Assembly: GCF_000376385.1 (NCBI RefSeq) | Contig: NZ_AQWN01000002.1 | Coordinates: 62,115 to 126,114 of the forward strand | Length of the DNA stretch: 64,000 bases | Direction: 5' to 3' | DNA from: Desulfurispora thermophila DSM 16022 | GTDB taxonomy: Bacteria > Bacillota > Desulfotomaculia > Desulfotomaculales > Desulfurisporaceae | Part shown: one piece after another, positions 12,075-19,875 of the stretch | Position numbering within the stretch: the first letter of the stretch is position 1 | Layout: each line of letters opens with the position of its first letter | Position numbers and translations under genes: made by a program | The notes under the pieces: generated by a model | Seen by the model: the letters and a program-made list of their open reading frames with translations, nothing else | The model's database searches: none | Told to the model about the DNA's origin: nothing

Positions 12075-12108
12075 TTGACATGGTCAAAATTTTGTCGCTA
12101 TAATGACA
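12075..12108 (+). promoter_or_regulatory. ctaB promoter with overlapping TGTC-N8-GACA operator
   Basis: TTGACA (12075-12080), 18 bp, TATAAT (12099-12104): both hexamers are perfect. A dyad TTTTGTC-GCTATAAT-GACAAAA (core TGTC 12093-12096, GACA 12105-12108) encloses the -10 box. The core has the same TGTC-N8-GACA shape as the arrays at 13917 and 18939. A factor bound here would block polymerase, so repression is the natural reading. Confidence 0.75.
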
Positions 12109-12137
12109 AAAGTATTTTGCCGCGGTGGGTGAAGCGG

Positions 12138-13058
12138 ATGGTGGGTAAATCCGGACAGATTACCGGTGTATCCGGACCGGCCCGTCAAGAATTAGTTGAC
12201 AAAATAAAGAGTTATGTCGAGGTGACCAAACCCCGTTCTGTTTTTCTGCTGGTTTTTACCGCCCTGGCTACCATGATCGTAGCGTTGCCACCCCAGCCCC
12301 TGTCATTGCTCCACTGGACCAAGGCTGTTCTGGCTATTATACTGGCCTGCTCCGGTGTAAACGCCGTCAGTTGTTATGTGGACCGGGACATTGACGCCGT
12401 GATGGAGCGGACGCGCCACCGCCCCATTCCTTCCGGGCGGATTGCTCCACCGTACAAGGCTTTGTATTGGGGTCTGCTGCAATTTGCCCTGGCCCTGGCC
12501 CTGGCCGCCTGGATCAACTGGCTGGCCTTTACCTGTATTTTGCTTGGTATGCTGGGTTATGTGGGCGTTTACAGCCTGTGGCTGAAGCGTCGCAGCAGCT
12601 GGAACATTATCCTGGGCGGTTTTAGTGGCGGTCTGCCGGTTCTTTTCGGCTGGGCGGCGGTGCGGGGGGAAATCTCTTGGCTGGCAGTGTTGCTGGCACT
12701 TTTAGTGGTGTTCTGGATTCCCAACCATATCTGGAATTTGGCCATCTTTTTCCGCGAAGACTACCGCCGGGTGGGCGTACCCATGCTGCCGGTCGTCTGC
12801 GCCGTGCGGCGGACGCTGTTCTTCATACTGCTCACAGTTGTGGCCATGCTGGTTCTTTCCCTGGCTGTTTACCGGGTGGGAGGTATGGGGCCGGTGTATT
12901 ATTGGACGGCTCTGATCAGCGGCCTGGCTGTTCTGGCTGGTAATTTGTACCTGTACTTTAACTGTGACAATAAATCGGCCTGGTGGCTGTACAAGCTTTC
13001 CAGTCCCTATCTTTTTCTGCTTTTCCTGGCATTAATCATTGACAAATGGGTAAGGTAA
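12138..13058 (+). CDS. ctaB: Protoheme IX farnesyltransferase (heme O synthase)-like UbiA prenyltransferase
   Basis: A 306-aa integral membrane protein with eight or nine hydrophobic segments. The first prenyl-diphosphate motif is NAVSCYVDRDIDAVMERT, followed by RHRPIPSGRI, and the heme O synthase signature REDYRRVGVPMLPVV is present. The enzyme adds a farnesyl group to heme B. The ATG at 12138 follows GGTGGGTGAAGCG and lies just downstream of a perfect promoter; the in-frame extension to TTG 12075 runs through the -35 box and is rejected. No terminal-oxidase or ctaA gene is in the window, so its use in an anaerobe is unexplained. The downstream crp/fnr gene may be cotranscribed. Confidence 0.85.
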   Translation: MVGKSGQITGVSGPARQELVDKIKSYVEVTKPRSVFLLVFTALATMIVALPPQPLSLLHWTKAVLAIILACSGVNAVSCYVDRDIDAVMERTRHRPIPSGRIAPPYKALYWGLLQFALALALAAWINWLAFTCILLGMLGYVGVYSLWLKRRSSWNIILGGFSGGLPVLFGWAAVRGEISWLAVLLALLVVFWIPNHIWNLAIFFREDYRRVGVPMLPVVCAVRRTLFFILLTVVAMLVLSLAVYRVGGMGPVYYWTALISGLAVLAGNLYLYFNCDNKSAWWLYKLSSPYLFLLFLALIIDKWVR

Positions 13059-13881: not shown

Positions 13882-13917
13882 GCTGCTGCCAGGTGTGGCG
13901 GCAGTTTTTGTTTTTTT
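13882..13917 (+). terminator. Rho-independent terminator after the crp/fnr gene
   Basis: CTGCTGCC pairs with GGCGGCAG (one wobble) around AGGTGT, followed by a T-rich tract to 13917. The first operator of the following array begins at the end of this T-run. Confidence 0.8.
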
Positions 13918-14001
13918 GTCGCCGGTGCGACATATAAGATGTCGGCAATAAGACAATGATAGTGTCGGAAGCAGGACAAAAAAAATGTCCGGTTTCTGAT
14001 A
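13917..14001 (+). promoter_or_regulatory. Array A: tandem TGTC-N8-GACA operators, 23-bp period
   Basis: Three complete 16-bp units, TGTCGCCGGTGCGACA (13917-13932), TGTCGGCAATAAGACA (13940-13955) and TGTCGGAAGCAGGACA (13963-13978), are followed by a degenerate TGTCCGGTTTCTGATA (13986-14001). Each pair is separated by exactly 7 bp. The 16-bp dyad size matches Crp/Fnr sites. GATAAT at 13998-14003 can serve as a -10. This would put unit 3 about 40 bp upstream of the start, the class II activator position. Binding by the adjacent Crp/Fnr protein is inference. Confidence 0.75.
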
Positions 14002-14049
14002 ATTTTTTATGTGAAATCCGGATGATTAAATGAGAGGGAGGTGAGGGGG

Positions 14050-14511
14050 ATTAGTAAGCCGGCTGCGCTTTCCAGGTGGGTTTTCCCAGGGAGAGGGTTT
14101 AGGTCAGGTTTTAATTTCTTGTTTTGGCACAGAGAGAAACAAAAACAGCTCATGCAGCGCATTGGTGAGTTGCGTGAACTGTCCGGGCTGGCTGCCGAGG
14201 CCGGAGCACCGGCGGTTTACCAATCACTACAGAAAGAGGCCAATGAATTGCTCATGGAATACCTGGCCCTCTGTTTCATCGACGGAATTTATTTTTTATT
14301 ACCCCATGTGCTGGTACTGGCTGTATTAAGCCATTTCTGGCCGGCGGTGATTTTGCCGGCCGGGGCGCCGTTTTATGGATGGAAAGTGAGCAGCGTGGTC
14401 TGGTACCCTGTGCTGGTGATTATGTACTACCTGGGAAAAAACTTTATCCGGCATACTTTAGAGAAACAAAAACAAAAGCGCGCGGTTCCGGAAATTTTGC
14501 CAAAAATCTGA
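14050..14511 (+). CDS. Small membrane protein of unknown function, upstream of the TauE/SafE exporter
   Basis: The frame is open from 14026. A strong GAGGGAGGTGA (14034-14044) sits 5 nt before an ATT at 14050. The only standard in-frame start, GTG 14041, lies inside this Shine-Dalgarno. I therefore give the ATT start (153 aa), with GTG 14041 as the alternative. The protein has a basic N-terminus, an amphipathic helix (KQKQLMQRIGELRELSG), two membrane spans (about residues 80-97 and 115-130) and a Lys-rich tail. I do not recognise the family. It lies 65 nt before the exporter gene behind array A and probably works with it. Confidence 0.65.
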   Translation: MSKPAALSRWVFPGRGFRSGFNFLFWHREKQKQLMQRIGELRELSGLAAEAGAPAVYQSLQKEANELLMEYLALCFIDGIYFLLPHVLVLAVLSHFWPAVILPAGAPFYGWKVSSVVWYPVLVIMYYLGKNFIRHTLEKQKQKRAVPEILPKI

Positions 14512-14576: not shown

Positions 14577-15536
14577 ATGGAATTTCACGTGGCGGGAGTG
14601 ACGGTCAGCCCGATTGCGCTCATCCTCTGGTCTATTTTTGTGGGTTATGTCTTTTCCACCATTGGGGCGGCCGGCGGTATTCTGGCCGGCGTAGGCCATA
14701 TTTCAATTTTTGGTATGAAAAAAGCCAATATAGTCAAGCCCATGAACCAGATGCTCACCCTGGTCAGCCCGGTGATTGCGGCGCCGCTGTACTTCCGGGA
14801 GCGCCGCCTGGTGGTGCCGGCGGCCATTGCCCTGGGCCTGGGTGGTATTATCGGCGCTTTGCTGGGCTCCTGGCTTTCCCACACTTACCTGCCCGATATG
14901 AAGTCGTACAAGCCGTTTTTCGGGGCCATCACGCTGTTTATTGCCGGGCGTATGTGGTATGAAATGCTGCCCTCGGTAAAAGAAAAGCAAAAGGCCGTCA
15001 AAAAGGCCAACAAGGCTTTTGAAGACAAGGTGAAGGAGCTGAAGGCGGCCGGCAAGCTCAATGAGCTGAAGGAAATCGGCGTGCAGTTCCAGCAGATGGG
15101 TCTGGGCAACAACGTGTTTACCTTTGGCGGGGAGACCTTCCGCTACAATGCCATTTCTCCCTTCCTGGCCGGATTGATTGTGGCGGTGATCTCGGCCGCT
15201 CTGGGCGTGGGCGGCGGTTTTCTGCTGGTGCCCTACCTGACCAGCATCCTGGGCTTCCCCATGTTTGTGGTGGCCGGTACGTCGGTGCTGTCCATCCTGG
15301 TTTCTTCCGCCACCAGTATCGCCAACTATATTAAAATGGGCAGCAATCTGGATTGGGCCATGCTCAGCTTTGAACTGGCCGGTGTAATCATCGGTTCTTA
15401 CCTGGGTCCCGTGCTTTCCAAATATGTGAAAGCCGAGTACCTGAAAGGCTTCCTGGCGGTTGTGCTCACTTACATCGGCATTGGTTACACCTTCGGGGCG
15501 ATTATTCTCAAAGCTACCGGGGTTAAGATCATTTAG
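14577..15536 (+). CDS. TauE/SafE family sulfite/sulfonate-type exporter
   Basis: A 319-aa membrane permease with two homologous halves carrying the Gly-rich family repeats (STIGAAGGILAGVGH at the N-terminus and ISAALGVGGGFLLVPYL in the second half). Between the halves is an unusually long, charged cytoplasmic insert of about 60 residues (KEKQKAVKKANKAFEDK and onward). Family members export sulfite, sulfoacetate or related anions. ATG 14577 follows GCGGAGGTG. It is the second gene behind the array A operators. In a sulfur-respiring organism export of sulfite or thiosulfate-like anions is reasonable but unproven. Confidence 0.85.
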   Translation: MEFHVAGVTVSPIALILWSIFVGYVFSTIGAAGGILAGVGHISIFGMKKANIVKPMNQMLTLVSPVIAAPLYFRERRLVVPAAIALGLGGIIGALLGSWLSHTYLPDMKSYKPFFGAITLFIAGRMWYEMLPSVKEKQKAVKKANKAFEDKVKELKAAGKLNELKEIGVQFQQMGLGNNVFTFGGETFRYNAISPFLAGLIVAVISAALGVGGGFLLVPYLTSILGFPMFVVAGTSVLSILVSSATSIANYIKMGSNLDWAMLSFELAGVIIGSYLGPVLSKYVKAEYLKGFLAVVLTYIGIGYTFGAIILKATGVKII

Positions 15537-18861: not shown

Positions 18862-18938
18862 ATTGGCCGGTGGTGTCTTGGAGGAGACATAAACCATGTC
18901 ATATGTTTGTGCCATTTATTGGGGAAGCGAGCGGTCAA

Positions 18939-19023
18939 TGTCAGATATGCGACATATTAAATGTCGCAAGCAAGACATGGTTGATGTCTTTCCTGTGACA
19001 CCAGGGATGTCGTGCATCTGATA
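18939..19023 (+). promoter_or_regulatory. Array B: tandem TGTC-N8-GACA operators, 23-bp period
   Basis: The units are TGTCAGATATGCGACA (18939-18954), TGTCGCAAGCAAGACA (18962-18977), TGTCTTTCCTGTGACA (18985-19000) and a degenerate TGTCGTGCATCTGATA (19008-19023). All are separated by exactly 7 bp. The layout, including the final GATA variant, repeats array A although spacer bases differ. A GATATG -10-like hexamer starts in the last GATA. The DUF169 start codon lies 49 nt from it, against 52 nt to the start in array A. Confidence 0.75.
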
Positions 19024-19068
19024 TGCTGTGATTAAATAAAAATTTTTTTACCGGGGGAGGAGTATGCC

Positions 19069-19875
19069 ATGTTGTTGAATATCAGTGCACTGGCGCAAAA
19101 AGAAGAGCTGACTTATGCCGAAATGGCGGATGCTCTGGAGTACCTTTACAAGCTGGATTACCATCCCGTAGCTGTAAAGTTTTTCTGGGACGAGCAAGAA
19201 TATGATAATTTTCCGGCGGAAAAGGTGCCGGGGGCAAAGATGACGCTTTGTCAGATAGCCCTGGCTTCCAGGATGAATAACCATATAGTTAAGGCCAGGG
19301 AAGATCACTTGTTGTGTGGCAATGCCAAAACCTGTCTGGGTATGCGCCAGGCCAGCGATGAGGAAGTGGAGGGGCATGTCAAATACACCGCGGACTGGGA
19401 TCTGGCCAAGGAGTGCTTGCTGGCCAAACCCATGTTGCCGCTGGGCAAGCTCAAAGGTTTTATGACCGCACCGCTGGGCCGCACGCCTGTCGCTCCCGAT
19501 GTGGTTTTCATGGTGGTCAATCCACTGCAGGCTTACCATATTTTAAATGACTATATCGGTGCCAAAAGGGTGCCCAGCTTGCAGTTCAATCACACTATCA
19601 ACTCGGCGGTTTGCGGGGGCATGGTCTGGTGTTATAATGAGCAAAAGCCCAACATGAACACCATGTGTGCTGGCAGTTACACTTCGGGTAAGACCGAAAA
19701 GGGCGAAGTAAACCTGTTTATCCCCGGTGGGGACATGGGAGCCCTGGTCAAACAACTGCTCAGGCGCACCGCCCAATATGGTGGTTCTTCCATGCTGGGG
19801 TCTCCCGGTCAGGAATGGCCCGGCCTGCATGTATGTAAAAAGTGTCCCATGGTCAGATTTAAGGATGTTGAATAA
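19069..19875 (+). CDS. DUF169 family protein, cysteine-rich
   Basis: A 268-aa soluble protein matching the uncharacterised DUF169 family. Conserved-looking pieces include YHPVAVKFF, LCGNAKTCLGM, PDVVFMVVNPLQAYHIL and a C-terminal HVCKKCPMVRF. It has about ten Cys, several in pairs, suggesting metal or cluster binding, which is inference. ATG 19069 follows GGGGGAGGAG. The gene sits alone behind array B and its end overlaps the convergent comEC end by 17 bp. Shared control with the TauE exporter hints at a role in sulfur or redox metabolism. Confidence 0.75.
   Translation: MLLNISALAQKEELTYAEMADALEYLYKLDYHPVAVKFFWDEQEYDNFPAEKVPGAKMTLCQIALASRMNNHIVKAREDHLLCGNAKTCLGMRQASDEEVEGHVKYTADWDLAKECLLAKPMLPLGKLKGFMTAPLGRTPVAPDVVFMVVNPLQAYHILNDYIGAKRVPSLQFNHTINSAVCGGMVWCYNEQKPNMNTMCAGSYTSGKTEKGEVNLFIPGGDMGALVKQLLRRTAQYGGSSMLGSPGQEWPGLHVCKKCPMVRFKDVE

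Follow-up and report, generated by a model that had tools for sequence, protein, structure and literature searches.

A phased array of TGTC-N8-GACA units in fixed register with an extended -10 element marks a probable Crp/Fnr regulon in the order Desulfotomaculales

Introduction

Ahead of an operon for a TauE/SafE-family permease in Desulfurispora thermophila DSM 16022, perfect copies of the inverted repeat TGTC-N8-GACA follow one another in strict phase. What is such an array for, and which protein reads it? An earlier note on this DNA had proposed that the units are Crp/Fnr-type dimer sites linked to the protein encoded next to them, here called 13213 after the first position of its gene. 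We followed up this proposal in the window (the whole 64,000-nucleotide stretch of contig NZ_AQWN01000002.1 that was analysed), in the rest of the genome, and in relatives. At a probability of roughly 0.8, we read the array as the control region of an activator-dependent promoter, at which tandem dimers of 13213-type proteins would drive a small regulon; the case is built from sequence comparison.

Results

Arrays in the window and the genome

Direct reading and a pattern search both confirmed three exact units and a degenerate fourth, as the earlier note had described, with every step between the units at 13917, 13940, 13963, and 13986 equal to 23 bp (Table 1). The 64-kb window holds 10 exact matches to TGTC-N8-GACA where 0.47 are expected, and none of 100 shuffled windows reached that count. 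Two-unit pairs at 23 bp with at most three mismatches occur seven times, against 0.13 expected. The shuffles and pair counts rule out a chance repeat as the origin of the array. Backward-pattern controls in the array searches gave counts near zero.

A second array (18939-19000), absent from the earlier note and identical in geometry and period, precedes a DUF169 gene at 19069-19875. An extra exact unit, TGTCTTGGAGGAGACA at 18874-18889, lies 65 bp 5' of this array, out of the 23-bp phase. Searching the whole genome revealed a further perfect pair at C4:243466, where the gene that follows encodes a dCache-type chemoreceptor. It also turned up weaker arrays at C10:61872, ahead of a molybdopterin oxidoreductase, and at C1:165397, ahead of a protein with heterodisulfide-reductase-type cysteine-rich and iron-sulfur domains. 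As read from the printed sequences, an extended -10 element begins 18 nt past the last GACA of the C10 array, with a TGTC in the spacer, and one base farther at the C4 array. A near-palindromic pair, GGTCATGCAAATGACA and TGTCATTTGCATGACT, was also seen 5' of a histidine kinase gene (L015:3978-4037; G000 C1:106298), with a third weak unit another 23 bp along.

A single exact site at 12093 encloses the TATAAT (12099) of a TTGACA(12075)-N18-TATAAT promoter ahead of the heme O synthase and regulator genes, which are possibly cotranscribed. Since the listed heme O synthase reading frame begins within this promoter, its true start lies later. Lying on the -10, the site could serve negative autoregulation of the regulator. 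Among the relatives checked, no such site was found at the heme O synthase promoter; it is limited to this genome, and conserved negative autoregulation there was therefore dropped. A CtaB-type heme O synthase gene adjoins the regulator gene on its 5' side in several relatives as well, which is odd for presumed strict anaerobes.

Table 1. Coordinates of the array units, promoter elements, and genes in the window
Feature	Position	Strand	Remarks
Heme O synthase (UbiA family)	12075..13058	+	NCBIfam PRK04375.1-2 and cyoE_ctaB above cut-off
Single site before heme O synthase/regulator genes	12093..12108	.	TGTCGCTATAATGACA; exact; contains -10
Crp/Fnr-family regulator, SRQTVT recognition helix	13213..13878	+	Pfam HTH_Crp_2 and cNMP_binding; proposed array binder
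Operator unit 1	13917..13932	.	TGTCGCCGGTGCGACA; exact TGTC-N8-GACA; centre -87.5 from predicted start
Operator unit 2	13940..13955	.	TGTCGGCAATAAGACA; exact TGTC-N8-GACA; centre -64.5 from predicted start
Operator unit 3	13963..13978	.	TGTCGGAAGCAGGACA; exact TGTC-N8-GACA; centre -41.5, class II position
Fourth unit of the earlier note	13986-14001		TGTCCGGTTTCTGATA; TGTC-N8-GATA; one mismatch
TGTC half-site in promoter spacer	13986..13989	+	keeps the 23-bp phase of the array; makes up the left half of "unit 4"
Extended -10, TG-A-TAATTT	13997..14005	+	fixed +18 offset across regulon; predicted start near 14012
Small membrane protein, first gene 3' of array	14041..14511	+	recurs behind arrays in relatives, cluster CL2
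TauE/SafE-family permease, target operon	14577..15536	+	Pfam TauE 2.3e-34; CL1 recurs behind arrays
Second array unit 1	18939..18954	.	TGTCAGATATGCGACA; exact match; centre -87.5
Second array unit 2	18962..18977	.	TGTCGCAAGCAAGACA; exact match; centre -64.5
Second array unit 3	18985..19000	.	TGTCTTTCCTGTGACA; exact match; centre -41.5
TGTC half-site, spacer of DUF169 promoter	19008..19011	+	left half of TGTC-N8-GATA at 19008
Extended -10, TG-A-TATGCT, DUF169 promoter	19019..19027	+	offset +18; predicted start near 19034
DUF169 (COG2043) protein, target gene	19069..19875	+	Pfam DUF169 1.9e-50; orthologs behind arrays in many relatives

Conservation of the phasing and co-inheritance with the regulator

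Across the order, 113 genomes were searched for arrays of two exact units with a free spacing of 0-30 bp, and 44 contain one. Orthologs of 13213 (E<=1e-40) are carried by 62 of the 113. Arrays occur in 43 of these 62 genomes versus 1 of the 51 without an ortholog (Fisher p 5e-15, a value uncorrected for kinship and, because the genomes are related, an overstatement). That lone genome is 80% complete, with its array at a contig end. Of 383 genomes sampled from other orders of the phylum, two contain a pair that matches. Within one genus, G036, G055, and G057 have the regulator, TauE, DUF169, and arrays, and G026, G053, G054, and G056 lack all four. Arrays adjoin the regulator gene in many genomes and genera. 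This co-occurrence in relatives supports the proposed link between the dimer sites and the 13213 protein.

Perfect units lying up to 80 bp apart in the fetched loci are separated by 22 bp (13 cases), 23 bp (43), 44-46 bp (32), or 65-69 bp (4), and by nothing else, where 0.07 cases are expected per distance. Since only 22 bp, 23 bp, or multiples occur, the 23-bp phase is conserved, relaxed at some steps to 22. The earlier note had named missing 23-bp phasing in relatives as an outcome that would speak against its claim; the phasing was found, with steps of 22 or 23 bp, and the claim was not refuted. The 19 genomes with an ortholog and no strict array include diverged lineages in which the recognition helix is unchanged. 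One family, which includes G023, G071, and G074, has units that match the pattern less well at an unchanged step of 23 bp, as read from the printed sequences; the strict pattern therefore undercounts arrays.

A fixed register to the promoter

For 67 array-gene pairs, we counted offsets from the last GACA on the side of the gene and sought the extended -10 element TGN-TAnnnT at each of them. It lies at +18 in 39 of the 67 pairs and at any other offset in 0-2, an excess with p about 1e-86 under independence. The 39 promoters in this register belong to TauE operons, DUF169 genes, chemoreceptors, molybdopterin oxidoreductases, the regulator itself, and others, and many of the non-matching pairs represent the second gene of a divergent pair. 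At L088, L091, L097, and L100, molybdopterin-oxidoreductase arrays stand in a divergent region, opposite a YtxC-family gene (PF08812, as tested for L088); the +18 extended -10 is found only on the oxidoreductase side.

If the -10 hexamer is counted as -12 to -7, the +18 offset puts the centre of the promoter-proximal unit at -41.5, where CRP is reported to sit as a class II activator (PMC5957442). The best -35 matches at 16-18 bp spacers reach at most 4/6 and usually at most 2/6. A site at -41.5, a -10, and a weak -35 together define a class II activator promoter, here with the start predicted from sequence. At the first array, the TG occupies 13997-13998 and the hexamer TAATTT 14000-14005; at the DUF169 promoter, the hexamer TATGCT occupies 19022-19027. 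The plain -10 that had been placed on GATAAT at 13998 is thereby superseded by the extended element TG-A-TAATTT in its +18 register. The accompanying idea that unit 3 sits near -40, in a class II position, was supported, its predicted centre being exactly -41.5.

The same register changes the meaning of the fourth unit. Its letters are indeed TGTC-N8-GATA, but the right half, GATA, coincides with the extended -10, and an ordinary dimer site was therefore rejected: what remains is an extended -10 plus a spacer TGTC. An exact TGTC at +7 is enriched: of the 39 promoters in the +18 register, 11 have it, in several target classes, which makes it a recurring feature and perhaps a weak extra half-site. 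A bolder idea, which we regard as doubtful, is that a weak fourth dimer site (TGTC-N8-GNTA) arises from the spacer TGTC combined with the extended -10 and makes the array a band-pass switch. Moderate amounts of active regulator would then activate from -41.5, and high amounts would fill unit 4 and shut the promoter.

Two genomes without a close ortholog, G010 and G073, keep a diverged 23-bp-phased array and the extended -10 at DUF169, with a class II unit resembling TGTG-N8-CACA; another regulator may thus use such arrays. Four DUF169 loci of one family (L209, L210, L212, and L214), including those of two genomes without a close ortholog, have a TGTG-N8-CACA-like class II unit (TGTT-N8-CACA in L214) and retain the 23-bp phase, the extended -10, and the spacer TGTC.

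The regulator and the target genes

The 13213 protein has the two domains of the Crp/Fnr superfamily, an N-terminal cNMP-binding-type domain (cNMP_binding, 4.9e-18) and a C-terminal Crp winged helix-turn-helix (HTH_Crp_2, 5.5e-19), both above the Pfam cut-off. Three proteins of the genome exceed the cut-off for the Crp helix-turn-helix; SRQTVT is the helix of 13213 alone, the other two having SRVMVT and ARPSLS. The RQTVT stretch is kept in 60-61 of 61 aligned rows, some of which repeat a genome. The nearest named relatives of the regulator come from Desulfovirgula, Desulfofundulus, Desulfotomaculum, and allies, and the nearest solved structures by sequence are actinobacterial Crp, NtcA, and CooA (4cyd, 4byy, and 3r6s among them).

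The familiar ligand determinants are missing from this protein. CooA ligates heme through a His (and Cys/Pro) of its sensor domain; 13213 has no His in residues 32-135 and no Cys before residue 88, and no CooA model appears among its NCBIfam matches. Of the Glu and Thr-Ser/Asn contacts to cAMP, alignment to actinobacterial Crp shows the Glu of GEL replaced by L77 and the Thr-Asn by A131-E132; at least 95% of the 61 rows share L77, A131, and E132. The four cysteines of an FNR 4Fe-4S cluster, three of which lie close to the N terminus of FNR, are absent, the only cysteines being C88, C140, and C158, none of them N-terminal. The NtcA NCBIfam equivalog model scores 78 bits against a cut-off of 245. 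These residues suggest that the signal is not cAMP, heme-bound CO, or an FNR-type cluster, and the regulator is best read as a Crp/Fnr activator of none of these types. Cys88, present in 60 of 61 rows (some repeating a genome), adjoins the conserved Arg86-Thr87 of the ligand pocket; we might guess at a thiol or reactive-sulfur sensor.

Recurrent targets behind the arrays are the small membrane protein with the TauE/SafE permease, DUF169, chemoreceptors, DUF1847, the regulator itself, and a molybdopterin oxidoreductase with iron-sulfur and pyridine-nucleotide partners. A Pfam search with the small membrane protein gave no match. Its listed start, GTG 14041, is without a spaced ribosome site; an alternative ATT at 14050 has GGAGGTG at a suitable distance and apparently lines up with the start ATG in the L105 homolog. 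In Desulfovibrio alaskensis, a DUF169 gene and a TauE-type gene are adjacent in a cluster whose disruption confers nitrate resistance (PMC4001038). By analogy with this pairing, anion transport linked to electron-acceptor use is a plausible theme for the regulon.

Discussion

The mechanism that we propose would work as follows. Dimers of 13213 would occupy TGTC-N8-GACA units 22-23 bp, or about 2.1-2.2 helical turns, apart. The dimer at -41.5 would contact RNA polymerase in the class II manner, the promoter offering an extended -10 and no usable -35. Those at -64.5 and -87.5 would stabilise the proximal dimer or touch the alpha subunits, and thus steepen the response; such cooperativity among the units is suggested by their spacing. 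One protein could in this way govern the TauE operon together with genes for DUF169, a chemoreceptor, and a molybdopterin oxidoreductase; the gene that encodes the regulator would often be included. Although binding by 13213 and activation are what we infer, the array, its phasing, the fixed register to the extended -10, their conservation, and the co-inheritance with the regulator are direct observations.

The same arrangement might instead serve repression, with 13213 or another protein coating units 1-3 and the spacer half-site and excluding RNA polymerase. The units overlap the -35 region, the spacer TGTC extends into the core promoter, polymerase would likewise be blocked by a protein bound at -41.5, and the single 12093 site, of the same sequence, sits on a consensus -10, as a repressor site would. 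What makes repression unlikely in our view is that an extended -10 lacking a -35 is the makeup of activator-dependent promoters, and that the register is exactly the class II -41.5 (PMC5957442), whereas occluding positions would be expected to scatter. Activation from the array is also preferred over a different kind of owner, some other TGTC/GACA-binding protein beside which the Crp/Fnr gene would be a mere passenger. The diverged arrays kept by G010 and G073 without a close ortholog speak for such a protein; it is nevertheless highly improbable, given the co-occurrence and repeated adjacency to the regulator in many genera, the arrays ahead of the regulator's own gene, and a class II register typical of Crp/Fnr proteins. 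The helix of 13213 also matches that of the TGTC-binding member CooA, which has Arg-Gln at the same place.

That resemblance raises the further question of whether the CO sensor CooA itself owns the sites and the window is an ordinary CooA regulon. The earlier note had remarked on a CooA-like half-site beside a protein without the CooA ligands, and both remarks hold: the sites are identical to the published CooA consensus TGTC-N8-GACA (PMC7306483; PMC545781), and the ligand His and Cys are absent from 13213. In the sequenced part of the genome, all but 0.4% of it, the other two Crp/Fnr proteins have unrelated recognition helices, and the observed targets are not CODH genes. CooA was rejected as the binder on the strength of the helices and the missing heme His, and a CooA regulon here is barely credible. 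This leaves activation by 13213 as the preferred reading.

Tandem Crp/Fnr sites are already known, and an extended -10 is also a feature of activator-dependent promoters at which E. coli CRP acts. Actinobacterial Crp (Mtb Crp, GlxR type) and NtcA are the closest solved structures, yet they are distant homologs whose ligand residues differ and whose DNA half-sites are different from TGTC/GACA. The class II and tandem promoters of E. coli CRP likewise have a dimer site at -41.5 (PMC5957442) and more dimers upstream. Their upstream sites are at -61.5 or -93.5, however, rather than at -64.5 and -87.5; the cAMP contact residues of CRP are missing in 13213, and promoters throughout the present regulon typically carry two to four adjoining units in steps of 22-23 bp. 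CooA differs in having heme ligands, and its regulons, so far as the available text of the cited papers describes them, have single sites before CODH/hydrogenase genes instead of phased arrays before other targets. HcpR resembles 13213 as a Crp/Fnr regulator of energy-metabolism genes in sulfate reducers, but the available excerpt of its description (PMC545781) gives a TTGTGA-N6-TCACAA site and Hcp and sulfate-reduction targets, with no phased arrays.

In the open-licence literature, we found no prior description of this motif, of tandem Crp/Fnr arrays, or of a Desulfotomaculum Crp regulon. What appears new is a regulon that spans the order, a class II register kept exactly, and arrays that are the norm instead of an occasional finding. 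From sequence alone, a regulon shared across an order would be defined, together with its regulator, in a Gram-positive sulfate-reducing lineage, and two poorly understood families, the TauE-type permease and DUF169, would be tied to one signal. Overall, an arrangement of adjoining dimers at a constant distance from an extended -10 may offer a test bed for whether homotypic arrays sharpen Crp/Fnr responses.
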